The notes below the pieces were generated by a model, which was not told the DNA's origin, ran no database searches, and was given only the letters and a program-made list of their open reading frames with translations. Below are positions 14,625 to 61,182 of a stretch of 64,000 nucleotides of DNA, in pieces. The stretch is taken from the NCBI GenBank assembly GCA_019651435.1, contig BOYI01000004.1:1-64000 (forward strand), in the 5' to 3' direction. Source of the DNA: Pelagibacteraceae bacterium. GTDB lineage: Bacteria > Pseudomonadota > Alphaproteobacteria > HIMB59. Each line of letters starts with the position of its first letter. The stretch's first letter is position 1. The translations under genes were made by a program, and so were the position numbers.

Positions 14625-14720
14625 GTTAGAAATTATACCCCAATTAAGGGGTATAGTTAATTAAATTTGGAATATTAAAAATTAAAATAAGCCTTGAATT
14701 AACCTTTTCATCAAGCATAT

Positions 14721-16346
14721 TTAATTAGCACTTGGAACTCTTGGTAGACCAGGCATTGTCATTATGGCTCCGGGTTTCAACTACTATAAATCCTGCACCT
14801 GCTGAAACCTCACCTCTCTTACAGGAACCGTAAATCCTGTTGGCGCACCTCTAAGAGCTGGATTAGTAGAGAAACTGTATTGAGTTTTTGCAATACAGAT
14901 TGGGAGTTTTCCATATCCGCCTTTCTTCAAAACCTTTAAGCTGATCGCTAACTGCTTTATCAATGACAATATCATCGGCACGATAAATTTTTTGTGCTAC
15001 CGCCCTGATTTTATCTTCTAATGACATGTCGTCATCATAGGTAAAAGTAAACTTTGACGTATCACTTGACTCAGCAATTTTTACAACTTCTTCTGCTAAT
15101 TCTTTTGTGCCTTCACTGCCATTTGCCCAGTGTGAGCAAACTACCGCTTTTACACCTAATTTTTCACAACCTTCAGAGATGACTTTACCTTCCGCTTCTG
15201 TATCTAGAGTAAAGCTATTGATAGCAACAATTGTCTGCAATCCAAAAGATTGGATATTTTCAATATGACGCTGAAGGTTAGAAAAACCTTTTTCAACAGC
15301 AGATACATTTTCATTATTGAGATCAGCTTTTTCTACTCCACCATGAGATTTAAGCGCTCTTACAGTTGCAACAATTACTACTACATTAGGAGTTAAGCCA
15401 GCCTTACGGCATTTAATATCAAGAAACTTTTCTGCACCAAGGTCGGCGCCAAAACCAGCTTCAGTTACAACATAGTCAGCAAGCTTAAGTCCAGTTTGAG
15501 TAGCTATAACTGTATTACAACCATGAGCTATATTTGCAAAAGGTCCACCATGAATAATTGCAGGGTTATTTTCAAGAGTTTGTACTAAGTTAGGCATTAA
15601 TGCATTTTTCAAAAGAACAGTCATTGGACCGTCGCCTTTAACATCTCTAGCATAAATCGGTGACTTATCTCTTCGATAAGCAATAATAATATCACCAATT
15701 CTTTTTTGTAAATCTTCGATACTTGTGGCTAAACAGAAAATAGCCATGATTTCAGAAGCAACAGTAATATCAAATTTATCTTCTCGAGGGAAACCATTTG
15801 ATATACCGCCTAAGTTGACGTTAACTTTTCTAAGTGCTCTATCACCCAAGTCAACTACGCGACCCCAAGTAATTCTTCTTTGATCTATACCTAATTCATT
15901 GCCCCAATAAATATGATTGTCAATTAATGATGAGAGAAGATTATGTGCAGAAGTAATAGCATGGAAATCTCCTGTAAAATGTAAATTAATTTCTTCCATT
16001 GGCACCACTTGAGCATAACCGCCACCAGCAGCTCCACCTTTCATACCAAAATTAGGACCAAGGCTTGGCTCTCTTAAACAACGATTGATTTTTCCAATTG
16101 CATTTAAGCCGTCATTAAGGCCAACAGATGTAGTTGTTTTACCTTCGCCAGCTGGAGTAGGGCTAATTGCGTTACAAGGATTAGCTTACCGTCAGGATTA
16201 GATTTACTTTTTTCAATAAAATCAAAGTTAATTTTAGCTATATCATGTCCGTAAGGGACTAAACTTTCTTCTGGAATATCTATTTTGGCAGCTACATCAC
16301 GAATATGTATTTTACTGGCAGCTCTTGCAATTTCTATATCTGACAT
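14721..16346 (-). CDS. fhs: Formate-tetrahydrofolate ligase (frameshifted near both ends)
   Basis: [76 protein letters not shown]; ends at PSAN*. Confidence 0.95.
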
Positions 16347-16472
16347 TTGAACTTAAGTTCCTTTCTCCTCAATATGTGGTATACAATATACCAGTATCTT
16401 TAAAATTTATTAAGTATTTAAATCAAAAAATTTGAATATTTCCTTAATAATTTTAAGCCCATGTGTCGCATT

Positions 16473-17412: not shown

Positions 17413-18577
17413 TTGAAGATACTTGTATTAGGGCTTGGGTATGTAGGCACAGCTAATGCTGTTTTGCTGTCTCAACAAAATGAAGTTGTTTGTTATGACC
17501 TTAATGTTGATCGTATCAATTTAATTAATGATAAAAAATCTCCTATTGAAGACAAGAAGGCATCTGAATATATCTCTCAAAAAAATTTAAATCTTAAGGG
17601 GAGTTGTAAAATTTCCATCACAAAATGATTTTGATTTTGTTGTCATCGCTACTCCAACTAATTACGATCCTGATACAAATAATTTTGATACCTCTACAGT
17701 AGAGTCATGTATTGAAAATTTGATCTCACAAAATTCTAAAGCTACAATTATTATTCGATCAACTCTTCCAGTAGGTTTTATTGAACGCATCCAAAAAAAA
17801 TACTCTTATCAAGAAATTATATTTGTCCCTGAATTTTTACGAGAGGGTAAAGCCTTGTATGATAGCCTTCATCCATCGAGAATTGTTGTAGGTTCTCATT
17901 CTGATCAAGCTAAAAAATTCGCTCAATTATTATTAGAGGGAGCTACCAAAAAAGACGTTGAAGTACTTTATACCAAGCCCACAGAAGCGGAGTCCTCTAA
18001 GCTTTTTGCAAATGCTTTTTTAGCTATGCGGGTAACATTTTTCAATGAACTTGATACTTTTGCCATGGCAAGAAATCTTGATACCAAAGAGATAGTAAAA
18101 GCGGTGAGTCTAGATCCACGAATAGGAGATTATTATAACAACCCTTCTTTTGGTTATGGGGGCTACTGCCTTCCTAAAGACACCAAACAACTTTTACGTA
18201 ATTTTGAACAAGTTCCTCAAAAAATTATGGAAGCAATTATTGACTCTAATACAATGCGAAAAGATTTTTTAGGTATAGAAATTGCTAAATTAAAGCCAAA
18301 AAAAGTTGGGGTTTACAGATTGGCTATGAAAGAGGGCTCTGATAATATCCGTGAGTCAAGCATGCAAGGTATAATGAAAAGGGTAAAAGCCAAAGGAATA
18401 CCAATGATTATTTATGAACCTTTAATAAAAGAAGAAACATTTTTTAACTCACCTGTATATAATGATTTAGAGAAATTTAAAAAAGACTCAGATTTAATTA
18501 TATGCAATCGTAATTCATCTGAATTAAGTGACGTACAAGATAAAATCTTTACCCGAGATATATTTCAGCAAGATTAA
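17413..18577 (+). CDS. UDP-glucose 6-dehydrogenase (one frameshift near 17,600-17,630)
   Basis: MKILVLGLGYVGTANAVLLSQQNEVVCYDLN; EFLREGKALYDSLHPSRIVVGS; FGYGGYCLPKDTKQL. Confidence 0.9.
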
Positions 18578-23509: not shown

Positions 23510-24678
23510 ATGCAGACCAATTTTCTTAGAAGGTTAATATTTGATGAAAAATCAAGATCCCTCCTAATTCAAACTCTTGTCATTGGTCTTTTTGCTTTAT
23601 TTATTTACCTAATAGCCCAGCAAACTGCCTATAACCTTGAAAAGAGAGGAATTAGCTCAGGTTTTGATTTTTTAAATATAGCTGCTGGTTATGATATTAG
23701 TATCAGTTTAATTCCATTTACAAGTGAAGATACTCATCTTAGAGCTTATTTTGTAGGATTACTAAATACCCTTATGATTGCTGTATGTGGGTGCATACTA
23801 GCAACCATTATAGGATTTTTAGTTGGTATAATTAGATTATCAAGTAACTGGTTATTTAGAAATATTGCTTATGTTTATGTCGAATTTACAAGAAATGTTC
23901 CAGTTCTTCTTCAAATAATTTTGTATTATAGCATCTTACTAAATCTTCCAAAAATTAAACAAGCATTTGTAATTTTTGATACTTTTTATTTAACTAATAG
24001 AGGTTTATTTTCTCCTTCACCTATATTTAAAGAAGGCTTTTCTATAGTTCTTTGGAGTTTTATTTTTGCAATAATTTTTTCAATTTTACTAAAAAGATTT
24101 TTAAAGAAAAAACAAGAACAAACAGGTAAACAGTATCCAATTTTTTTAATAAATAGTGCTATTATAATTTTTACCCCAATTTTTTTTTTTATGTCATGGG
24201 AATGCCATTAGAGTTTGACTCTCCTGTCTTAAAAGGTTTTAATTTTAAAGGTGGTATGGTTATCCGACCTGAATTCCTTGGCATGCTTTTTGGTTTATCT
24301 ATTTATACTGCAGCCTTTATATCTGAAACAGTAAGATCTGGAATTATCTCTGTATCAAAAGGACAAAGAGAGGCCTCACAAGCACTGGGTTTGAAGAGTA
24401 GTTTTGTAATGAGATTAATCATTATTCCACAAGCCTTAAGAGTAATAATTCCTCCTTTAACATCTCAATATCTTAACTTAACCAAAAACTCATCACTTGG
24501 TATTGCAATAGGTTATGCAGATTTAGTTCATGGTTTTGGTGGTATATCTCTAAATCAAACAGGTAGAGCAATTGAGATTATGCTTATAGTGATGTTAACT
24601 TATCTTTCTATCAGTCTAACTATTTCTTTATTTATGAATATTTATAATAAGTCAGTTCAATTCAAGGGTAACGCATGA
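23510..24678 (+). CDS. aapQ: General L-amino acid ABC transporter permease AapQ (frameshift in poly-T at ~24,180-24,190)
   Basis: Two abutting ORFs with AapQ features; RNVPVLLQIILYY, KGQREASQALGL. Confidence 0.9.
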
Positions 24679-27629: not shown

Positions 27630-28241
27630 TTATGAGACCACAAGCAATAATCCGACCAAAACCATCACACTGCCTGTAATTTGATTTAATCTTTTAGCAG
27701 CTGAAGGTTTCGTTACCCAAGACTTAATTTGATTTCCCGCTCCGCAAACAACTACCAAAGAAGCAAAAACGCTAAAATAAACAGTAAGAATAATTTGAAT
27801 ACCTGTCATCAAACTAATATTTGATAGGTCTAAAAAAAGAGGAATAAAAGAAAGATAGAATAAAATTACCTTTGGATTTGTTCCTCCAATTAAAAATCCC
27901 ATCAAAAATTGTTTAACTGTATTTGTTGGGATCTGATTGGAAGAGTCTAACTCAAGTTGAGATAGTCGAAATTGCATAACTCCTAGATAAATTAAATAAC
28001 CTGCGCCAATCCAACGAACAACATACATGACTGGCTCAAGGTAAACTGATAAATATCCCAAAGAAAGGATAGCCATAGTCAAATAAACAACATCTCCAAC
28101 TGCCTCTCCAGCTCCTAAAATTAAACCGGAGCGAAGTCCTTGGGATGTGGAAACAGAAAGGGCGGCTAAAGTCCCTGGACCCGGAGAGATTCCAAAAACA
28201 AAAGCTGCTCCAGCTAAAGATAAAAAAGTCGCCAAATCCAT
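27630..28241 (-). CDS. LysE/RhtB-family exporter
   Basis: GISPGPGTLAALSVSTSQGLRSGLILGAGEAVGDVVY, GGTNPKVILFYLSFIPLF. Confidence 0.85.
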   Translation of the reverse strand: MDLATFLSLAGAAFVFGISPGPGTLAALSVSTSQGLRSGLILGAGEAVGDVVYLTMAILSLGYLSVYLEPVMYVVRWIGAGYLIYLGVMQFRLSQLELDSSNQIPTNTVKQFLMGFLIGGTNPKVILFYLSFIPLFLDLSNISLMTGIQIILTVYFSVFASLVVVCGAGNQIKSWVTKPSAAKRLNQITGSVMVLVGLLLVVS

Positions 28242-28302
28242 CGAGCGAACATTAAACTTTTCCTATATGGTCACAACTACAAAATGTTATTATGAAATTT
28301 AA

Positions 28303-29372
28303 ATGAATTATTCCATTTTTGATGGCCATAACGATGTGCTCTTTCGTTTATTTTTAAAAAATAAAATCAATGCTCATGAAGATTTCCTCTTAGGAGATAA
28401 TGAGGGTCATTTAGATTTACCTAGAATGGAAGAAGTAGATTTTAGAGGGGGGTTTTTTGCAATTTATGTTCCTTCACCTGAGGCTGAAGTTAGCACCAGT
28501 GATAAACCTATCCGCTATGACGATATGGAAAAAGATGAATATTCCCTTCCATTACCTGACTTAATCGGAAGCGATCAAGCCCTACCTATTGTAATAAGAA
28601 AAATATCTCTTTTATCTCAAATCGAAAAACACTCTCAAGGAAAAGTTAAAATCTGTCTTTCTGGCTCAGATTTGGAAAAAAGCTTTCAACAAAGAAGTCT
28701 CTCTATTCTAATGCACATTGAGGGGCAGAGTGTATTGATGATAATTTTTATAATTTAGAGGCCCTTTATCGATCAGGCCTTCGTTCGATCGGGCCCGTGT
28801 GGTCGCGTCCAACTATTTTTGGAGAAGGGTACCTTTTGCCTTTCCACATTCACCTGATACAGGAAAAGGACTTACAAGCAAAGGAGTAGAGTTAATCAAA
28901 CATTGTAATGATTTAAAAATCATAGTTGATAATTCTCATTTAAATGAAAAAGGTTTTTGGGATATAGCCAAATATCTCATAATCCTTTAGTGGCAACTCA
29001 TAGCAATGCCCATCAACTATGTCCTCATACTAGAAACTTAACGAATAAACAACTTGATGCGATTAAAGAGACTAAAGGAATGGTTGGAGTAAATTTTGCT
29101 CCAGCTTTTTTAAGACCTGATGGGAAAATGATTGCGGAAACAGATATTCAACTAATAGTCGATCACTTTAAATATTTTATTGATTATCTGGGAGAAGAAT
29201 ATGTTGGATTTGGCTCAGATTTTGATGGCGCCATGATGCCGAAGAACCTATCAAGTGTCTTGGGGATGACACTTTAATTGAATTAATGGTCAAGCAAGGT
29301 TTTAGTGAAGATTTAATGAAAAAACTTTGTCATCAAAATTGGCTATCTCTAATAAAAAGAACTTTGACATAA
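28303..29372 (+). CDS. Membrane dipeptidase (peptidase M19), frameshifted
   Basis: FDGHNDVLFRLFL, MHIEGQ, LKIIVDNSHLNEKGFWDIA, PLVATHSNAHQLCPHTRNLTNKQLDAIKE, VGFGSDFDGA. Confidence 0.9.
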
Positions 29373-33347: not shown

Positions 33348-34088
33348 ATGAAAAGATTTACTCTTTTATTTTCGGCTTTTTTTTTAACTAGCTGTGCTGG
33401 AACATATAATTTTGCATGGTTTTCTATTAATCCTTTTCATCCCCAAGGATCATCTAACATTGAGTTTTTAATTGGAGGACTTTGGACTACAATTTGGATA
33501 TCATTAGTCAGTTTAATTTTAGCGGCGATATTAGGACTTATAGTAACTCTTCCCAACTTTAGCTCAAAAAAATCTATTCGATCAATAAATCTTATATATG
33601 TAGAAATTTTTAGAGCAATACCAGTATTGGTTCTTTTGCTCTGGATTTATTATGGTTTACCATCCATATTTGGTGGAGGCTTATCTTTTAATCCTTTTGT
33701 TGCTGGTGTCATTACTCTAGTTTTGCATGAGTCAGCTTTCATCTCTGAAATTTATCGATCAGGCATTCAGGCAATTAAAAAAGGTCAAATCGAAGCTGCA
33801 CGATCTTTAGGTCTTAAACCTAGTTTGGTTTTTTTAAAAGTGACTTTACCTCAAGCGATTAGAATTATCACACCTGCACTAATGAATCAGGGTATCTATA
33901 TTTTGAAAATGAGCTCACTTATATCAGTTATAGGTTTAGGAGATCTTACAAGAAGAGCTAATGAATTAATAGTTACTACGTATCGTCCTTTGGAAATTTA
34001 CTCATTCTTAGTTTTAGAATATCTAGTCTTAATCTTAATAGCCTCTTTTTTTGTCCGTAAATTAGAGAAGAAATTTGAAATTAAGTAA
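33348..34088 (+). CDS. Polar amino acid ABC transporter permease with N-terminal lipobox-like sequence
   Basis: LLFSAFFLTSCAGTYN then permease; SGIQAIKKGQIEAARSLGLKPSLVFLKVTLPQAIRIITPALMNQ. Confidence 0.85.
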   Translation: MKRFTLLFSAFFLTSCAGTYNFAWFSINPFHPQGSSNIEFLIGGLWTTIWISLVSLILAAILGLIVTLPNFSSKKSIRSINLIYVEIFRAIPVLVLLLWIYYGLPSIFGGGLSFNPFVAGVITLVLHESAFISEIYRSGIQAIKKGQIEAARSLGLKPSLVFLKVTLPQAIRIITPALMNQGIYILKMSSLISVIGLGDLTRRANELIVTTYRPLEIYSFLVLEYLVLILIASFFVRKLEKKFEIK

Positions 34089-35439
34089 CAGGATTAGTCT
34101 TAAGAGCTAATCCCTCTTTTTTAATTAAATATCGCATATGAAAGAAAATTAAGAAGGCGGCGATGATATTACTGCAAAGGATAGCCCACCAGATACCATT
34201 CAACCCAAGCCCTAAAGTTTGAGAAAAAAAGTAAAAAGTAAAGGGAGGAATAATTGCGAGTCTTAAGAGAGTATAAAAAGCATTAATTGTAGGCTTTTTC
34301 ATACCCGATAGAACTGAGCCGCTTTGATGTATCACCTGATAGACAAAAGTAAGAAACGCAGCCATGAATAAATAGCTTCCAGCTATTTTAATTACTTCAG
34401 TATCTCGAGTGAATAAATATGCCATTTGTTCACCTGCGAGAAAGAGAATGGCTGAGCCAAAGACCATTAGTAATAAAGCTAATTTAAGCGAAGTAACAAA
34501 GGCCTCATAAATTCTGTCAAAATTTTTAGCCCCATAGTTTTGGCCTGTCATACTTAACATTGCTGTATTAAGACCAATAGCAGGTAAAAGGATAATTTGT
34601 TCTATTCTTAAAGCTATACCATATCCGGCACTAGCACTTGCTCCATAACCTGTCACATATTTTTGAATAATAAAAAAACCTATTCCAATAAGTAACATGT
34701 TCATACTTGCTGGAAGAGCCTGCTTGAAAATATCAATAGCCATCTTAATTTGGAGTTTACAGTAGCTAAATTGAAATTTTTTGGACAAAGGACTTTTAAG
34801 AACAAAATATCCTAAATAAATGACATTAAATATTTGGCAAAGAATGGTGGCAATTGCAATGCCCATTGTTCCCAATGCAGGGAAAGGACCAATACCTAAA
34901 GACAGAATAGGGTTAAAGATCAAATTTATTATAAAACCAATAATAAGAGCATTTCTATTTTTTTTTGTATCACCTTGTGCATATAAAAAAGAGTTGATGA
35001 CATTGGCAAAAATAAAAAAAGGAGCACCATATGCTAGAGTTTGCATATAGCGAAGACCATTTTCCAAAAAAAGATCACTAGCTCCAAAAAATATAAAAAC
35101 AGGTTCTGAAATTTTATAGGTGATATATCCAATTAAAACTGAAAGAATTAGAGAAATCGTTAAAGATTGAATGTATATGTAAACAGCATCTTCTTCTTTT
35201 TTTGCTCCTAGTAAGTTTGAAACTAACGCTGTTGTTCCTTGTCCAAAACCTACTGCAAAAGCTAACAGTATGAAATAGACTGGGAAAGAAATGGCAAGTC
35301 CTGCTAAAGCCTCGGTGCTAATAAGACCAGCGTAAAATGTATCAACGACATTATAAAGCGTGTAAAAAAGCATCCCAATACCAGCTGGCACGGCCATGCT
35401 TATCAACTGCTTTCGAATATTACCCTGTGTGAGATCCAT
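34081..35439 (-). CDS. MATE-family multidrug efflux transporter
   Basis: 452 aa, repeated MATE TM architecture; LISMAVPAGIGMLFYTLYNVVDTFYAGLIS. Confidence 0.9.
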   Translation of the reverse strand: MDLTQGNIRKQLISMAVPAGIGMLFYTLYNVVDTFYAGLISTEALAGLAISFPVYFILLAFAVGFGQGTTALVSNLLGAKKEEDAVYIYIQSLTISLILSVLIGYITYKISEPVFIFFGASDLFLENGLRYMQTLAYGAPFFIFANVINSFLYAQGDTKKNRNALIIGFIINLIFNPILSLGIGPFPALGTMGIAIATILCQIFNVIYLGYFVLKSPLSKKFQFSYCKLQIKMAIDIFKQALPASMNMLLIGIGFFIIQKYVTGYGASASAGYGIALRIEQIILLPAIGLNTAMLSMTGQNYGAKNFDRIYEAFVTSLKLALLLMVFGSAILFLAGEQMAYLFTRDTEVIKIAGSYLFMAAFLTFVYQVIHQSGSVLSGMKKPTINAFYTLLRLAIIPPFTFYFFSQTLGLGLNGIWWAILCSNIIAAFLIFFHMRYLIKKEGLALKTNPVT

Positions 35440-35442
35440 AAA

Positions 35443-35859
35443 TTAAAAAGGTTTCACTACTACAAGTATAACAATTAAGACAAGAAGGATAGTTGGAACT
35501 TCATTGATTATTCGTAAATATCTCGAGGTATAATCTCTGTAATTATGCTCTAAGTTTTTTCTGATTTTTGCTAAGTACATGTGAAACCAAGTTAAAATAG
35601 CGACTAATATTAACTTCAAAATCAACCACCAAGCAAAACCAACATAGTGAATTAACCCCAAGCCAAAAACCCAAGTTAAGATCATGGCTGGATTCATGAT
35701 AATTCGAAGAAGCTTGTATTCCATTTTTTGAAAAACTTCATTCATTTCTTTATTGGTGTTATTTTCAATGTGGTAAACAAATAATCTTGGTAGATAAAAG
35801 AGTCCTGCAAACCAAGAGACAAAAGAAATAATATGAAGTATTTTTAATGTCTCATACAT
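35443..35859 (-). CDS. hemJ: Protoporphyrinogen oxidase HemJ
   Basis: LKILHIISFVSWFAGLFYLPRLFVYH; downstream of hemF. Confidence 0.9.
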   Translation of the reverse strand: MYETLKILHIISFVSWFAGLFYLPRLFVYHIENNTNKEMNEVFQKMEYKLLRIIMNPAMILTWVFGLGLIHYVGFAWWLILKLILVAILTWFHMYLAKIRKNLEHNYRDYTSRYLRIINEVPTILLVLIVILVVVKPF

Positions 35860-35862
35860 TGT

Positions 35863-36687
35863 TTAATTCCATTTTGCCTCTGGAGGCATTGACATAAGTA
35901 TGGCATCAATATTACCACCTGTTTTTAAACCAAATAAAGTTCCCCGGTCATATAATAGATTAAATTCCACATAACGAGATCTTTTTTGAGATAGGGTTCT
36001 TAAATCATCTTTGTTGTAATCAAAATCTTTCTTTCGATTTACATTATCGATAATGAAGTTAATAAAATACTGACCAATGTCTTTAATAAAAAATAAATCT
36101 TTTTCAAAATTATTACTAATATAGTCGAAAAAAACTCCTCCAACTCCCCTCGGCTCTTTTCGATGTTTCAAATAAAAGTATTCATCACATTGTTTTTTAA
36201 ATTTTTCGTAATATTCTTTATCATGAGGGTCGCATGTTCTTTTTAAGCCCTCATGAAAATTTTCAGTTTCTTTATCTTCCGGAATAGCAGGTGTTAAATC
36301 ACATCCTCCGCCAAACCACTGTTTTCCTTTTGTGGTAATATAGCGAGTATTGAAATGAGCAGCTGCAATTTTAGGATTTTTCATGTGAGCCACGACGGAA
36401 ATGCCACTAGCCCAAAAACTTGGATCTTCCTCAGTCCCCGGCATATTACCTCTAAATTCTTCACTAAATTCACCATGTACTGTAGAAATATTCACACCAA
36501 CTTTTTCAAAGATCTCGCCCTTAAGAATAGACATTAATCCACCTCCTCCTCCAGGTCTTTGCCATTCATTTTCCTGAAAAGTTGAACCATCAACTTTTTG
36601 GATAGCGCCAACCATTTGATTACGTAGTTCTTTAAACCATTTTTCAGCTTGTTTTTGTTGATTTTGTACTAGTTCGCTCATACCCAT
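35863..36687 (-). CDS. hemF: Oxygen-dependent coproporphyrinogen III oxidase HemF
   Basis: WQRPGGGGGLMSILKG, FWASGISVVAHMKNPKIAAAHFNTRYI, WFGGGCDLTPAIP, YVEFNLLYDRGTLFGLKTGGNIDAILMSMPP. Confidence 0.97.
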   Translation of the reverse strand: MGMSELVQNQQKQAEKWFKELRNQMVGAIQKVDGSTFQENEWQRPGGGGGLMSILKGEIFEKVGVNISTVHGEFSEEFRGNMPGTEEDPSFWASGISVVAHMKNPKIAAAHFNTRYITTKGKQWFGGGCDLTPAIPEDKETENFHEGLKRTCDPHDKEYYEKFKKQCDEYFYLKHRKEPRGVGGVFFDYISNNFEKDLFFIKDIGQYFINFIIDNVNRKKDFDYNKDDLRTLSQKRSRYVEFNLLYDRGTLFGLKTGGNIDAILMSMPPEAKWN

Positions 36688-37700
36688 CCATGCAATTCGT
36701 TTTCCAATAACGAAGTTAGGAGGAGTATATGATCATCTCGATCATTAAGACAGGGGATATATCCAAATTTTTTCCCACCATTTTCCATAAAAATTTCTCT
36801 ATTTTCTTCATTTAGTTCTTCAATGGTCTCTAGGCAATCAGAAGAAAAGGCAGGGCTAATAACATGGATATCATCGGTACCTTCTTTAGCTAAACTTTCA
36901 ATTGTCTTATCAGTATAGGGTTGTAGCCACTCTGCAGGACCAAACCTTGATTGAAAAGTTGTCATATAACTATCTTCAGGTAAGTTCATGGACTCTGCAA
37001 CTAGTCGTGTTGTTTTCCTACAGAAGCAGTGATAGGGGTCTCCTTTGTCTAAATATTTTTTTGGAATTCCGTGGTAACTAAAAAGTAGTTTTTTTGGTTT
37101 ATCATTTTTACTCCAAAATTCTTCAATACTATTTTTCAGTGCTTGAATATAGAGAGGTTGATCATAATAACTTCCAATAAATCTTAAAGAAGGAACCCAA
37201 CGCCATTTTTGAAGCTCTAAGGCAACTGCGTCAAAAGTTGAACCCGTTGTAGCGGCACAATATTGAGGGTAAAGGGGAAGAACAATAATGCGATCACAAT
37301 TTTGTTTTCTTAGATTATTTAAACCTTCTGCAATACTAGGATTGCCATATCTCATCCCAATATCAAAAACTAGATTGGAATATTTTTTTTCTAATTTCTC
37401 TTTGATGAGGCTTTTTTGTTTTTTTGTGTAAAGCAATAAAGGTGAACCATCATCTGTCCAAACTGATTGATAGGCCTTTGCAGATTTAGCGGGCCTTGTG
37501 CGAAGAACTATACCATTTAAAATTAACCACCAAATTGGTTTTGGAGTTTCGATTACCCTCTCATCACTTAAGAATTGTCGGAGGTATGTTTTCAAAGAAG
37601 GAGCTGTTGGTTCATCTGGCGTTCCTAAATTTGTCAAAAGGATACCTGTTTTTAAACCAGATCCGTGGATATACAGCTCGTTGCCTTTGAAGTTTGCCAT
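36678..37700 (-). CDS. hemH: Ferrochelatase HemH
   Basis: ILLTNLGTPDEPT, LPLYPQYCAATTGS, LLFSYHGIPKKY, TTFQSRFGPAEWLQPYTD. Confidence 0.97.
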   Translation of the reverse strand: MANFKGNELYIHGSGLKTGILLTNLGTPDEPTAPSLKTYLRQFLSDERVIETPKPIWWLILNGIVLRTRPAKSAKAYQSVWTDDGSPLLLYTKKQKSLIKEKLEKKYSNLVFDIGMRYGNPSIAEGLNNLRKQNCDRIIVLPLYPQYCAATTGSTFDAVALELQKWRWVPSLRFIGSYYDQPLYIQALKNSIEEFWSKNDKPKKLLFSYHGIPKKYLDKGDPYHCFCRKTTRLVAESMNLPEDSYMTTFQSRFGPAEWLQPYTDKTIESLAKEGTDDIHVISPAFSSDCLETIEELNEENREIFMENGGKKFGYIPCLNDRDDHILLLTSLLENELHGWV

Positions 37701-37718
37701 TGAAAAAAGGTACGTTTT

Positions 37719-38732
37719 TTAGGCTAATTTAGTTCTTATTTGTTCGATAAAAAGGTGAATATTGGTCTCAGGTGTGATCTTTTGCACTCCATGATCTAAG
37801 CTTGCAATCCAGCCAGAGCGTTGACTGACATCAAAGGATTGACATAAATCAATGTATTCGTTAAGTGCCATTAGAAAATCAGATTTTTCAGGAATAGCTA
37901 AAAGTTCATTGGAAAAATTACCCTGTAAGGATAGGTGGGTTTGAGAAAGTTCCTTAAAAATATTATGCTGTGTTCCAAGAACAGTTAATTGTAAATTTGA
38001 TATTCCTTTAAGAAGTTCAAACTTAGAGTGAGAAATATTTTTCGTGAAATAACCAATACGATTAGGATATTGATCAGCTATTTGTTCGATAAAGGGAAGA
38101 CAATAGTCCTCGAACTCCTTATCCGTTAGCTGATTAGCCTCAGTGTCAAAGATCATTAATAGATCAATGTCATTTTGAAATTGGATATCAATATTTTTTT
38201 AAAATCTTTTCTAATACTGGTAGGGCTTCAATTAATAAATTATCAGTAATTGGATTATTGCGAACTGCAAAGTGGTATAAAGTGATAGGACCCCCTGTAA
38301 ACCCAATGAGAGATTTATTTTGAGGAAGAGATGAGCGAATATTTTGAAGAGCTAGGTGCTGGAATTGGATGTATTCTTCAAAGGCATCTAAGTGAATATT
38401 ATCGAGCATCGATCTAGATAAATTTTTCTCAAAGACTGGACCAGGACTAAAAGATAGTCCCATACCTAAAAATCAAGTGGGAAAAGTATATCGCTAAACA
38501 GAATGGCAGCATCAAAATCAAATTCTTGAATAGGACCTAATGTTACTTCACAAGCTAGTTCAGGCTCACGACATAGCTGTTCAAAAGTATATTTTTGTTT
38601 GAGTTGTTGATAGTGATTATGATACCGACCAGCTTGGCGCATCATCCAAATAGGGGGAACAGCTTGATCTACTTTTTGAAGAGCATTGCTGAATGATTGA
38701 TTATAAATGTGAGACAATATCTCTAGCTCCAT
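37719..38732 (-). CDS. hemE: Uroporphyrinogen decarboxylase HemE (two homopolymer frameshifts)
   Basis: [32 protein letters not shown] | [21 protein letters not shown]; a missing T at ~38,464 would join the first two ORFs. Confidence 0.95.
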
Positions 38733-39621
38733 AGGTGATGATGTAATCTGCCTTAGCGCGACTAAACACATTCAAAGACTCCATTAATAAATCAGGGTAT
38801 TTGCCCAGCCCTTGGGAGTCTAATAATTTTAAACTCGCGAATTCTCCACTGACTTGATAGGCCCCTGTAGGAAGTAAGGTTTCCGCCTTAATTTCTTGAA
38901 TTAAATCAATTGAAGTCATTCCGGGCTTCACCATTAAATAATTAGCTCCTTGAGCAGCATTAATAATTGAACTTTGAATAGCTTTAGATCGATCATTGAC
39001 TGGAAGTTGATAAGAGGATCGGTCATAGCCTTTAGGCGTTGAATTAGCAGCCTCACGAAATGGACCATAAAATCCACTTTTGAATTTAGAGGAATAGCTC
39101 ATTATCTGAGCAGCATTAAAATTATTTTCATTAAATATTTTTCTTAAATACTTGGTTGTATCTTTCATCATATCACTCGGAGCAATAATATCTGCCCCTG
39201 CTTCTAGATAAGTGTTTGCAGCTAATCCCAAAGCATAGTGAGTTTCTGGTAAATTAATTTTTTTATTATGAGATATGCCACAATGACCATCTGGAGTAAT
39301 AGAACATAAGCAAGTATCGATCAACAATGTGAGATCTTTTTTAAACTGTGTTTTTAATGATCGAATAACCTCATAATGAAAACTAAAATCTTCTGGCAGT
39401 TTTTGCTTTTCTTTTGGAACTATAAAGAAAAGAAAATTACGCAAACCTTTTTTTAAGTCTTTTTCAACCGCTTTAAGGATAGTGGATTGAGGCCAACTAT
39501 AGTTTTCTCCTAAGCCTTTAATTTTTTTTGGAGATTTAAGCCTTTGATCAACAAACATTGGTTGAATTAACATTTGTTTAGAGAGTTTATTTGTTTTTCT
39601 AATTGGAAAATAGGATTTCAT
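38701..39621 (-). CDS. hemB: Delta-aminolevulinic acid dehydratase HemB
   Basis: [68 protein letters not shown]. Confidence 0.97.
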
Positions 39622-41095
39622 TTAAGTTCATATTTTTTAAAGTCTTCATAACTAAGATATACATTTAATTGTTCTTTAGGAATAATTTTAGAGATTTCTT
39701 GATAGGTATTACCTGGCCCACAAGCATTCTTTTTATTTAAGATATCAGGACGAAGTTGAATAGCCAATTTAAAGGCTGAATAACTCATCCAATAAAAACT
39801 CTCTGCTAGAAAAAGATTATCAATCGTCTGCTCATTTAATGATGGAACTAATTGATAATGAGCAAAAGGCTGAAAGGAATTAGATACCTTATTCTTTTTA
39901 TAAGTCAGTTTAATAGGTTTTGATTTGGATTGAATATAATAGCTTTCAATAGGCCGATATTTTTCCCCAAAACCATCAAAGCTATAGTTGACCTTGACTC
40001 CAGTTTTATTGAATTTTCGCCAACTAGTTACACCAGCAGTTCCCAAAAATCCAGCTTTAGAAATCTTTGATTTGGGCAAATTTTCTGTTCTTGTTGCAAG
40101 AATATGTTTATGAGAGAGGTCTTTTTTTAGAGGTAATGGCTCCCGATTAAACATTTTATAATTTTTAAGATTAGCAGGAAAAATATACTTTACTTTTTTA
40201 GTTCTAGGTTTTGATAAGTATTTTTTTTCATGAAAATATTTTTTAGTATGTTCATCTTTTCCTCTAGCAAAAAGAATTTGTTGATCTAAAAAACTTTCAA
40301 CCGTCACACCAATATCTAACGCACATCCTCCACCCCATCGTGATAAAAATTTCCTTTCTAACTGAGCTTGATGAAAAGAATGAGGGTCATTGATTGATTG
40401 TAGAATATTATCTAATTTTCTATTTTTTGCTGAGTACTCTAAAGCAATACATCCTTGTGCTGCGGCAGCTGGAAAATTGGATAAAGGTAAAATGATATAC
40501 TCAAACTGATTAAAATATTTTCTAAATTTTTGAAATTCTTTATTATTAATTTTCTGACCATATTGAAAAACACGATCAATTGCAGCTTTTGCCATAAAAA
40601 CTCCATCATGTTTGTTTGATAAAATTATTTTTTCTAATCGAGTGGTAATATTTCCACGAATGCTATTCGATTTAAATTTTTTGTTTGGTAAGAATTCACG
40701 CAAATGGCGGAGATAAAATCTTCTCCTTGGCGAGGATGTGGCGATTGTGAGAGAAGATCGGTGAATTGATTTTTTTTTGATCAATAAAACATCACGAGGA
40801 TCGTCTCGATTCAAGCAAATAAATTTGGATTTTTTTGAATGTTTGACAGGCAGGTCTTTAAAGGAATGAACAACTAAATCAGTTTTATTTAAATGAAGTT
40901 GTTTGCTGAGAGAGTTAGTAAAAACTCCAAAACCATGTTTTTCCCATGACTTTGAAGAAGTATCGTATCCCCAATTGACTCAGTGTATTGGATAGAAATT
41001 GGACCTTTGAAAATAGTTTTAATTTTTTTAATGGCTAAATGAGTTTGTATTTGAGCAAGAAAGCTTGATCGAGATAAGACTTTAATTTCTTTCAT
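39618..41095 (-). CDS. hemC: Hydroxymethylbilane synthase HemC with ~200-aa C-terminal extension, putative HemD-equivalent (one frameshift ~40,930)
   Basis: MKEIKVLSRSSFLAQIQTHLAIKKI, HSFKDLPVK, CLNRDDPRDVL, ATSSPRRRFYLRHLREFLPNKKFKSNSIRGNITTRLEKI, cofactor Cys in RWGGGCALDIG; extension has SFYWMSYSAFKLAIQLRP...ACGPGNTYQEI. Confidence 0.88.
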
Positions 41096-41148: not shown

Positions 41149-42159
41149 ATGGAAATTGGAATAGATAGTTTTGCTGGCTTAAGAGAGGGTGAACATGATG
41201 GCGCCGCAGCCATTAATGAACTTCTTGAGCGCATTCAATTTGCTGATCAAGTAGGCCTACACACTTTTGGAATAGGAGAGCATCATCGTCAAGAGTTTCT
41301 TGACTCCTCCCCATTTAATATTCTATCAGCGGCAGCGGCAAAAACTGAAAAAATTAAGTTGATCAGTGCTGTGACTGTTTTAAGTGCTTCAGACCCTGTG
41401 CGAACTTTTCAAAGTTTGTCTACTCTTGATCTGATTTCAAAAGGAAGAGCTGAAATGGTTGCGGGCAGAGGTTCTTTCTCTGAGGCATTTCCTTTATTTG
41501 GTTTTGATTTTAAGGACTATGATGATCTCTTTATTGAGAAATTAGATCTCTTACTTCAAATTCGTAATAATGAGTTTGTGAATTGGTCAGGAAAATTTCG
41601 ACCTGCTATTAATAATCTTCCAATCTATCCTCGTCCTATACAAGATCCACTTCCCATATGGCTAGGAGTAGGAGGAACACCTCAATCTTTTGCTAGGGCA
41701 GGTGTTTTAGGATTGCCTTTAATGGTAGCTATCATTGGGGGAAATACCCATCGTTTTAAACCCTTGGTAGATATCTACCGAGAAGCTTGGATGCAAGCGG
41801 GCCATCCTCCAGAAAAACTACAAGTTGGATTACATTCATTAGGATTCGTAGGAAAAACTATGGAAGAGGCTATTGACCTTTATTATGAGGGTTATGCAAA
41901 AATGTTTACTAAAATTGGTCGAGAGCGAGGTTGGGGACCAGTGACTCGAGAACAATTTGATCAACTAATTGGCCCATTAGGAGCTATAGTTTTAGGAAGC
42001 CCAGAGCAAGTTGCAGAGAAAATACTAAGACATAGTGAGGCACTAGGTGGAATTACCCGTTTCCAATTTCAAATGGATATTGCTGACATTACCCATCAAA
42101 AACTCCTTAATTCTATTGAATTAATTGGTAAAGAGGTAATACCTCTTATTAATAAGTAG
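41149..42159 (+). CDS. LLM-class flavin-dependent oxidoreductase
   Basis: FADQVGLHTFGIGEHHRQEF, SKGRAEMVAGRGSF, PLPIWLGVGGTPQSFARAG. Confidence 0.9.
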   Translation: MEIGIDSFAGLREGEHDGAAAINELLERIQFADQVGLHTFGIGEHHRQEFLDSSPFNILSAAAAKTEKIKLISAVTVLSASDPVRTFQSLSTLDLISKGRAEMVAGRGSFSEAFPLFGFDFKDYDDLFIEKLDLLLQIRNNEFVNWSGKFRPAINNLPIYPRPIQDPLPIWLGVGGTPQSFARAGVLGLPLMVAIIGGNTHRFKPLVDIYREAWMQAGHPPEKLQVGLHSLGFVGKTMEEAIDLYYEGYAKMFTKIGRERGWGPVTREQFDQLIGPLGAIVLGSPEQVAEKILRHSEALGGITRFQFQMDIADITHQKLLNSIELIGKEVIPLINK

Positions 42160-42235: not shown

Positions 42236-43504
42236 GTGAAAACACATAATTGGAAATCAAATTATTTTAGCACTCTTGAGACAGAGATAGATAAGATCAA
42301 AGAAGAGGGTCATTACCGAGTTTTTAATAATATTGAGAGAAAAGCTGGTCAATATCCTAAAGCTACTCGTCATCATGAGGGAAATACAGAAGAGATAGAT
42401 GTTTGGTGTTCAAATGACTATCTGGGTATGAGCCAAAACAAACACGTCATCTCAGCAATGCAATCAGCTGCAGAAAAATTAGGTGCAGGTAGTGGTGGAA
42501 CTAGAAATATCTCCGGGACAACAAATTTCCATATTCAATTAGAAAAAGAAATTGCAGCTCTTCATCAAAAAGAAAGAGCTCTTGCTTTTAACTCAGGATA
42601 TAGTGCTAATGAGTCAGCACTTAAGTCAATTATATCTGCCTTTGATAATTGCTTAGTATTAAGTGATGAATTAAATCATGCCTCTTTAATAGAAGGTATT
42701 CGTGGAAGTAAAAAAGAAAAAGCTATTTTTAGACATAATGATGTCAAACATCTAAAAGATATTTTACAAGGGGTTGAATTTTCTCGACCAAAGATAATTG
42801 TATTAGAGTCAGTTTATTCAATGGAAGCAGACTTTGCACCCTTAGAGGATGTAATTGAAGTAGCTCAGGATAATGGTGCTTTAATTTACTTAGATGAAGT
42901 TCATGCAGTAGGATTGTATGGTCCAAATGCAGCTGGAGTTGCGGAACAAAAGGGTGTTGCAGAACATATAGATATAATTAATGGCACCTTAGCTAAAGCT
43001 TTTGGACTAGCAGGCGGTTATATTGCTTCATCAAATACCATTATTGATTTTGTTCGAAGTTTTTCTAAAGGTTTTATTTTTACTACTTCTATGTGCCCAG
43101 CAGTAGCGGCAGGAAGCCTAGAAAGCATTCAACAAGTTAAGCAAAATGCAGAAGTAAGAGACTCATTTTTTGAGAACGTTAATTTTGTGAAATCTCAATT
43201 ACGATCTGCAGGTATCCCATTTCTTGACTCAGGTTCGCATATCATCCCTGTTTTGATTGGAGATAGCAAACTATGTAAGCAAATCAGCGATTATTTACTT
43301 GATGAACATCAAGTTTATGTTCAACCAATTAATTATCCCACTGTCCCCAAAGGAACAGAACGTATTCGTATTACTCCTACCCCTTGTCATTCAGAAGAAG
43401 CTACAGAAAAGTTTGTTGAAGCATTAAAAGATGCTTGGTTAAAATTTATGCCTCTTTTGTCTAAATTTGAAAATGACTTTGCTGGTAAAGTAAAATCCAT
43501 ATAA
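42236..43504 (+). CDS. hemA: 5-aminolevulinate synthase (GTG start)
   Basis: VWCSNDYLGMSQNKHVISAM, AGSGGTRNISGTTNFHIQLE, YLDEVHAVGLYGPNAAGVAEQ, GTLAKAFGLAGGYI, YPTVPKGTERIRITPTPCH. Confidence 0.97.
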   Translation: MKTHNWKSNYFSTLETEIDKIKEEGHYRVFNNIERKAGQYPKATRHHEGNTEEIDVWCSNDYLGMSQNKHVISAMQSAAEKLGAGSGGTRNISGTTNFHIQLEKEIAALHQKERALAFNSGYSANESALKSIISAFDNCLVLSDELNHASLIEGIRGSKKEKAIFRHNDVKHLKDILQGVEFSRPKIIVLESVYSMEADFAPLEDVIEVAQDNGALIYLDEVHAVGLYGPNAAGVAEQKGVAEHIDIINGTLAKAFGLAGGYIASSNTIIDFVRSFSKGFIFTTSMCPAVAAGSLESIQQVKQNAEVRDSFFENVNFVKSQLRSAGIPFLDSGSHIIPVLIGDSKLCKQISDYLLDEHQVYVQPINYPTVPKGTERIRITPTPCHSEEATEKFVEALKDAWLKFMPLLSKFENDFAGKVKSI

Positions 43505-56006: not shown

Positions 56007-56267
56007 ATGAACGAATTTCAACAACAAATACTGCAAAAAATCGAGCAAATTGCCCTAAAACTAGAAAATTATAAAACCAATAACCTAGAATTAACTAAAT
56101 CGAAAGATGAGCTTGAAGCAAAAGTCAATTATCTCGAAAGAAGAGAGCAAGAATTAAAAAATCAATTGGAACAAAAGCAAATGGAACTTTCTGAGAAATC
56201 TGAACTTATTGATAAAGCCACTAATAAAATTGAAGATCTTTTAGGATCAATCGATATAGATGCCTAA
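56007..56267 (+). CDS. Small coiled-coil protein upstream of zapA
   Basis: 86-aa predicted coiled coil overlapping zapA start by 8 nt. Confidence 0.7.
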   Translation: MNEFQQQILQKIEQIALKLENYKTNNLELTKSKDELEAKVNYLERREQELKNQLEQKQMELSEKSELIDKATNKIEDLLGSIDIDA

Positions 56268-56590
56268 TCTTACCTTAAGCATAGGCGGCAGACCCTTAAA
56301 AATTCAATGCTCTGACCATAATGTTGAAAGAGTTAAAGAAATTGGGCAGACAATAAGCAAGCTTATTGATGATGAAAAAAAAGAAAATGTTCCTTTTTTA
56401 ACTTCCACACTGATCGCTTACTTAAAATCTATGGAAGATATTTTAAAAAAGAGAAATTTTACAAGACTCACTTAATCAGAAATTATTTTATGAAAGCCGT
56501 ATCCAGGAACTTCAAAATGAAAATCAAAATTTAAAATCTGATATTGAACAAATTTTCCAAAAATTAAATCATCAATTATCAATTGAATAA
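56260..56590 (+). CDS. zapA: Cell division protein ZapA (frameshift ~56,455)
   Basis: LTLSIGGRPLKIQCSDHNVERVKEIGQTISKLIDDEK; other frame QDSLNQKLFYESRIQELQNENQNLKSDIEQ. Confidence 0.8.
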
Positions 56591-60130: not shown

Positions 60131-61182
60131 GTGAGCACAATCTCTCTTTATAATCCTTTTCGCAGATTATTTTTATTTTTTGAGGACTTTTCATATAGAA
60201 AAGGTGATCTTTTTTTTCAGTTTTTATCTTTCTTAATCCATCTTTTGATACTAATTCCAATGATTAATTTCACTTTTCAAAAAGAAGTGAGTGATATTCC
60301 AATGATATTACCTGTTGAAATGTTCATTGTAGAGGAAGAAACAGCTGCGCCTGAGTTTCAAGAGGAGGTCAATGAAATAATCCCAACTTTACAAGAGGAA
60401 GTGATCGAAGAAGTAATAGAAGTTGAAAAGGCTCCTGAAATAACCGAACCAGTTGTAGAAGAAACTTTGCCCGAGGTATCTGAGCCTGAACCACCAGTAA
60501 AAGAGATAGTTTCTGAAATAGTAGAACCTGAAATAAGTGAGGTTGAGGAAATACTGTTAGATAATTCTTCTGATCAGGCAAATGAATTCGTAATTGAAGA
60601 AGTTCCTGAAGAAAAAATTAAAGAACCAGAGGAGGTTGCTCCAGCGCCTATTGAAAATGACTTTGAAATACAGTTAAAGAAAAAACCGGAACCAAAAGAA
60701 ATTGAACAACCTTTTGATAATTTACAAATAGTAGTTAAGAAAAACCAAATAAAAAATCATTCAATGTTAGTACAGTTTTAAAAGATTTAGAAAATGTCGA
60801 TCAAGATTTTAAAAAAGTACAAGAAGAAACAGAAGTTAAACAAGAAGAGGTCTTTACAGAAAAAGTTGCTGCAACTATGACTATTTCATGAAATTGATCT
60901 TTAAGACAACAGCTTCATCTTGTCTAAATTAAATGTTGGTGTGCTAATCCTAAAGAATTAAACCAGTTATTTTCATTGAGGTAAATCCAGACAGAACTGT
61001 AAAGAGTAGCGAAAGTAGTGAATCAAGAAAGATTGATTGATCCATCTTTTAGAACAGCGGCAGAGGCTGCAATGAGAGCGGTTAACAACCCTGATTGTAG
61101 TCCCTTACTTCTTCCAGAAGATAAATATGATTTGTGGAAAGAAATCAATTTTACTTTTGATTTCAGCTGGATGTTTGATTAA
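60131..61182 (+). CDS. tolA: TolA (GTG start; frameshifts after 60,770)
   Basis: TM segment + Glu/Pro/Val-rich region; C-terminal VNPDRTVK..., LIDPSFRTAAEAAMRAVNNPDCSPLLLPEDKYDLWKEINFTFD. Confidence 0.85.

Follow-up and report, generated by a model that had tools for sequence, protein, structure and literature searches.

In the HIMB59 clade, to which the genome studied here belongs, heme biosynthesis is encoded by one cluster, and this is the locus described here; it is real, clade-wide and compact. It was studied in a stretch of 64,000 nucleotides (the window, by which the whole stretch is meant). We consider it highly probable that the reading developed below is correct as a whole, i.e. that HIMB59 has one heme cluster, that this includes a fused HemC/HemD of the type found in Leptospira, and that its descent is mosaic. 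What can be read directly from the sequences comprises the genes, their order and conservation, the catalytic residues of HemC and the fact that the HemC extension is homologous to the Leptospira enzyme along its whole length; function and ancestry are argued from these.

Results

Organisation of the cluster

Six co-directional minus-strand genes, hemC (with its extension), hemB, hemE, hemH, hemF and hemJ, are followed by a gene for a MATE transporter, as a sequence-only reading of the window had proposed. Proteins were identified by Pfam and NCBIfam profile matches, as follows.

34081..35439, minus strand: MATE-family efflux transporter, 3' of hemJ (PF01554, TIGR00797)
35443..35859, minus strand: hemJ, protoporphyrinogen oxidase (TIGR00701, 150.8 bits against a cut-off of 138.05)
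35863..36687, minus strand: hemF, oxygen-dependent coproporphyrinogen III oxidase (PF01218, E 3.5e-91)
36678..37700, minus strand: hemH, ferrochelatase (PF00762, E 1e-117)
37719..38771, minus strand: hemE, uroporphyrinogen decarboxylase (PF01208 on all three ORF pieces; start codon uncertain)
38701..39621, minus strand: hemB, porphobilinogen synthase with a Zn-type active-site motif (PF00490, E 8e-83)
39618..41095, minus strand: hemC/D, hydroxymethylbilane synthase (HMBS) with a C-terminal extension of ~177 residues (PF01379 on both frame pieces)
about 39621-40151, minus strand: the extension, forming the C-terminal part of hemC/D
41149..42159, plus strand: luciferase-like monooxygenase (Atu2307/SP_0267 family), in the hemC-hemA interval (TIGR03858, 468.6 bits against a cut-off of 462.25)
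42236..43504, plus strand: hemA, 5-aminolevulinate synthase, on the opposite strand to hemC-hemJ and divergent from them (TIGR01821, 578.6 bits against a cut-off of 338.55)

The junctions are also as first described, with overlaps of 4 nt (hemC/hemB) and 10 nt (hemH/hemF) and gaps of 18 nt (hemE-hemH), 3 nt (hemF-hemJ) and 3 nt (hemJ-MATE); these overlaps and short gaps, together with the conserved order, suggest that the cluster is transcribed as an operon. The genes had been taken to be contiguous, and whilst their order and junctions stand, hemC and hemE are each frame-broken in the assembly, at three points that the sequence-only reading did not see. It also overlooked hemA, which encodes the first step of the pathway and lies 1.1 kb upstream of the hemC-to-hemJ cluster. 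Its claim that the locus encodes every step from ALA to protoheme, if the HemC extension supplies HemD activity, is supported, and with hemA present the locus would cover the whole route from glycine and succinyl-CoA to protoheme, provided that the extension is a uroporphyrinogen III synthase (UroS). In this scheme HemA would make ALA, from which HemB would produce porphobilinogen; the Leptospira-type fused HemC/HemD would then form hydroxymethylbilane and close it to uroporphyrinogen III, and HemE, HemF, HemJ and HemH would complete protoheme. No role in heme synthesis is implied for the luciferase-like monooxygenase by its place between hemC and hemA. In the closest complete relative (G030), hemB, hemC, hemE, hemF, hemH and hemJ each have exactly one match, all inside the cluster.

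Frame breaks in hemC and hemE

As assembled, hemC is not one open frame, having a break near 40964, and hemE consists of three ORFs (38771-38466, 38463-38188 and 38156-37719), the frame being lost in a stretch of T near 38470 and again in a stretch of A near 38195. Three frame breaks within two adjacent genes could be read as real pseudogene mutations in a pathway that is decaying in this genome. However, two of the three sit in homopolymers; all frames are single and intact in relatives at 90-98% identity (L031-L033), where hemE is continuous; hemC is an intact frame of 492 aa in relatives; and six unrelated genes of the window are broken likewise. The last figure comes from gene queries taken from relatives: of the 80 that the window covers, 11 matched in more than one frame, and these correspond to hemC and the six other genes. 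Decay was rejected on the intact relatives and the six other broken genes, and we find it scarcely credible; the breaks in the two genes almost certainly arose in the assembly, an explanation far likelier than gene decay. The six other genes, multi-frame when compared with G030 or G009, lie at 14685-16367, 17413-18574, 23510-24675, 28147-29366, 56260-56587 and 60131-61179. The genome itself (1.35 Mb) is in seven contigs with a CheckM-type completeness of 69%, which fits indel errors of the long-read style, the likely cause of the breaks. Misassembly or chance as the origin of the cluster itself, the former allowed for in the sequence-only reading, is ruled out by the same order recurring across many independent assemblies.

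Conservation and variants

Gene-order comparison places the cluster beyond the window's genome: it is conserved throughout the genus, is for the most part kept in the sister family, and is present in other streamlined alphaproteobacteria. hemC, hemB and hemE are adjacent and in the same order in 29 same-genus genomes, and the longer loci of relatives read hemC-B-E-H-F-J-MATE, save that in two members of the genus (G044, G013) hemJ is swapped for hemG, a HemG-type protoporphyrinogen dehydrogenase occupying the usual slot of hemJ between hemF and the MATE gene. The same swap in a sister-family genome (G075) brings the number of such relatives to three, and all three HemG proteins score above the NCBIfam cut-off (190-205 bits vs 142). 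Wherever hemG replaces hemJ, an unnamed membrane-like protein of ~130 residues is encoded beside it (L040 15068-15475, L039 15281-15670, L049 5586-5981), the L040 copy being without a Pfam or NCBIfam match. Loci of the sister family (f2) read hemC-E-H-F-J; just two of its genomes, G053 and G054, keep hemB in its place after hemC and before hemE. The divergent arrangement of hemA is found also in G196, G470 and G147. The hemC-hemA interval is variable in content: a luciferase-like gene is present in HIMB59, other genus members have an SDR gene as well, and sister-family loci (L042 10809-11378 and similar f2 loci) have a cytochrome b561-like gene.

The HemC of AG-896-P05 is 98% identical to that of the window. 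The hemC of AG-333-O11 (L033 8001-9344) is 60% identical to window positions 39621-40979, the neighbouring hemB, hemE and hemA being 95-96% identical; this is an allele exchange confined to hemC. The MATE gene had been put forward as a possible member of the operon, and it does keep its position 3' of the cluster in all HIMB59-family loci that extend far enough; it is absent there in other lineages, so that it is a putative and lineage-specific member. Its product may export a product of the pathway, or may be unrelated.

The statement that heme genes are mostly dispersed in Alphaproteobacteria holds in a survey of 39 alphaproteobacterial genomes from different families, in each of which five or more of the six genes are present: all six are together only in HIMB59 (1/39) and five in G147, whilst the largest set is three in 27 genomes and fewer in 10, although a hemE-hemH-hemJ trio is common. 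Alphaproteobacteria with this trio resemble HIMB59 in the co-localisation of hemE, hemH and hemJ, but differ in having hemB, hemC and hemF elsewhere, a separate hemD (PF02602), a Mg-type HemB and a HemE of a different clade.

The order hemA / hemC-B-E-H-F-J is the same in G470 (family f99), apparently strain HIMB114 of SAR11 subclade IIIa, as in HIMB59, and the two are sisters in the HemA, HemB, HemE and HemF trees; unlike HIMB59, G470 has neither a luciferase-like gene between hemA and hemC nor a MATE gene after hemJ. An FTR1-like gene was called close by from the sequence of G470, and HIMB114 is reported to carry such a gene (PMC4771312). A further genome, G268 (family f47, L123 5370-13807), has hemH-hemA-hemC/D-hemB-hemE followed by HemN-like and flavin oxidoreductase genes, a cluster in which the fused HemC/D accompanies an oxygen-independent style of pathway.

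The HemC extension as a candidate HemD

The proposal that the extension is the missing HemD gains support from end-to-end homology to the Leptospira HemC/HemD and from the lack of a canonical HemD in the order. The extension (177-182 residues) begins after a reduced HMBS domain 3, and the catalytic and cofactor residues of HMBS are kept invariant (HSxKDLP Asp81, Arg124/125, Arg147/153, GGGC Cys258). A tblastn search of plasmid records with HemC gave one end-to-end match, that of Leptospira interrogans (98% query coverage, E 1e-51), in a record annotated as a bifunctional porphobilinogen deaminase/uroporphyrinogen synthase. The homology takes in both the HMBS part and the C-terminal domain, identity to the Leptospira protein being 32% for HIMB59 and 42% for G147, and invariant residues of the extension (W, D, G, Y and GPG.T) are shared with Leptospira. 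The L. interrogans HemC/HemD is a fusion for which both activities have been reported (PMC8698207, PMC11426443), the former source citing Guegan et al. 2003 for the bifunctional enzyme. A separate canonical HemD (PF02602) scored above cut-off in 0/100 relatives, the complete G030 included, some having weak matches below cut-off and outside the hem locus; in a class-wide sample, such a protein was above cut-off in 86 of 115 genomes.

Neither Pfam nor NCBIfam names a family for the extension. The HEM4 profile (PF02602) matched none of 15 proteins, and Pfam HEM4 likewise misses the extension of Leptospira. Profile-profile comparison with classical and alphaproteobacterial HemD returned an hhalign probability of 0.1, where the positive control, which recovered E. 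coli HemD, gave 96.6; the extension had no match among the sequences of solved structures, and structure prediction for the full protein from four sequences yielded a poor model (mean pLDDT 45). A profile of the extension matched 12 of 385 alphaproteobacterial genomes, its carriers being HIMB59 and the sister family, families f50 and f99, and one genome each of f33 and f47; when 398 genomes from across the phylum were searched, only G196 and the window's own genome were returned, and no other donors were identified.

The lack of any likeness to classical UroS could mean that the extension is not a UroS at all, the activity residing in an unrecognised separate protein or being absent from organisms that live on imported heme or coproporphyrin. 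Such a life would accord with PMC10308909, which states that HIMB59 members have heme transporters and that Kim et al. 2021 classed them as heme auxotrophs, and there is a precedent for misassignment in the Plasmodium HmbS, once wrongly credited with UroS activity (PMC8698207). The Plasmodium enzyme, however, is without an extension, whilst it is the Leptospira protein with a homologous extension that is reported to be bifunctional; moreover, every intact relative has the extension, which occurs in genomes that encode no PF02602 protein and adjoins genes for every later step. We therefore judge this alternative unlikely, and regard UroS activity as the probable function of the extension, which would then represent a HemD of extreme divergence or else another kind of UroS.

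Ancestry of the genes

In trees, the cluster's HemC, HemB and HemE fall together with those of Leptospira at 98-100% support, set apart from 16-28 other alphaproteobacteria and other outgroups, and a single alphaproteobacterial clade is rejected by AU tests (HemC p = 2e-14, HemB 1e-6, HemE 5e-9) from which one odd, actinobacterium-like row (L105) was left out. That row (G173, family f76) represents a separate heme cluster with a classical hemD, a HemC that groups with an actinobacterium and a Zn-type HemB, and is possibly an independent acquisition. In alignment, the HemB of the HIMB59 family has the CxCx7C motif of a Zn metal site, from which zinc dependence of the cluster HemB may be inferred; this Cys-rich motif is shared by operon and Leptospira HemB, whereas the Asp-containing Mg motif is found in nearly all other alphaproteobacteria and in the unlinked HemB of f2.

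Among the records searched, those of Leptospira were the best matches to the HemB and HemE of the cluster. The Leptospira heme gene order is hemACBLENG (PMC11426443), which resembles HIMB59 in that hemC, encoding a HemC/HemD fusion homologous end to end, is followed directly by hemB, of Zn type in both, and then by hemE. The two differ in the formation of ALA, by GluTR and HemL (the C5 route) in Leptospira and by ALA synthase in HIMB59, in the use of HemN and HemG/HemY-type oxidases rather than HemF and HemJ, and in the presence of hemKR inside the Leptospira cluster.

The remaining genes have other affinities. HemF, HemA and HemJ have alphaproteobacterial best matches in the plasmid collection and look alphaproteobacterial, and HemH is of a type common to gammaproteobacteria and a few alphaproteobacteria. 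Within the trees the HIMB59 family groups with f99 and its sister family with f50. A clade uniting the two families of the HIMB59 order is rejected by the HemC, HemE and HemA data, and is not rejected by those for HemF, HemH or HemJ.

Vertical descent within Alphaproteobacteria, with dispersal of the genes in most lineages and a likeness to Leptospira produced by convergence or long-branch attraction, has in its favour the trio common in the class, the alphaproteobacterial look of HemF and HemJ, and the length of the relevant branches; the HIMB59 sequences are fast-evolving and AT-rich, so tree distortion is possible. Against it, three proteins concur with strong support, the AU tests reject it, and the Cys/Asp motif of HemB and the fusion architecture are shared discrete characters. 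We regard it as highly improbable. Between vertical descent and block transfer, which the sequence-only reading had left to phylogeny, the latter finds support for the HemC/D-HemB-HemE part only. hemC/D, hemB and hemE appear to have an ancestor in common with those of Leptospira from which the genes of most alphaproteobacteria do not descend; transfer may have run in either direction, and as spirochetes were sampled from a single genus and few other phyla were covered, a group other than Leptospira may be the true donor. On balance we read the cluster as a mosaic heme operon spread by horizontal transfer, which, wholly or in parts, seems to have moved between streamlined aquatic alphaproteobacteria (HIMB59, SAR11-IIIa and others).

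Discussion

A search of the open-licence literature found no prior description of the cluster or of its link to Leptospira, although it may have been described elsewhere. The gene order shared by HIMB59 and SAR11-IIIa brings together lineages of disputed kinship, yet it should not be taken to show common descent, since transfer is what the gene trees indicate. The findings also set an early-pathway module common to HIMB59 and spirochetes beside the occurrence, in a single order, of HemB of both Zn type and Mg type.

How these abundant ocean bacteria obtain their heme is an active question, and here an apparently missing HemD would be concealed in a HemC fusion to which neither Pfam nor NCBIfam gives a label. 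The complete pathway predicted from the genes argues against auxotrophy for cluster-bearing genomes. It is conceivable, though we put it forward tentatively and think it rather doubtful, that the C-terminal domain common to HIMB59, SAR11-IIIa and Leptospira represents a second class of UroS, of ~177 residues and without the two-domain HemD fold, which has spread between phyla together with hemB and hemE. Were this so, the label of heme auxotroph would be mistaken wherever it was given to a genome because it lacks hemD.
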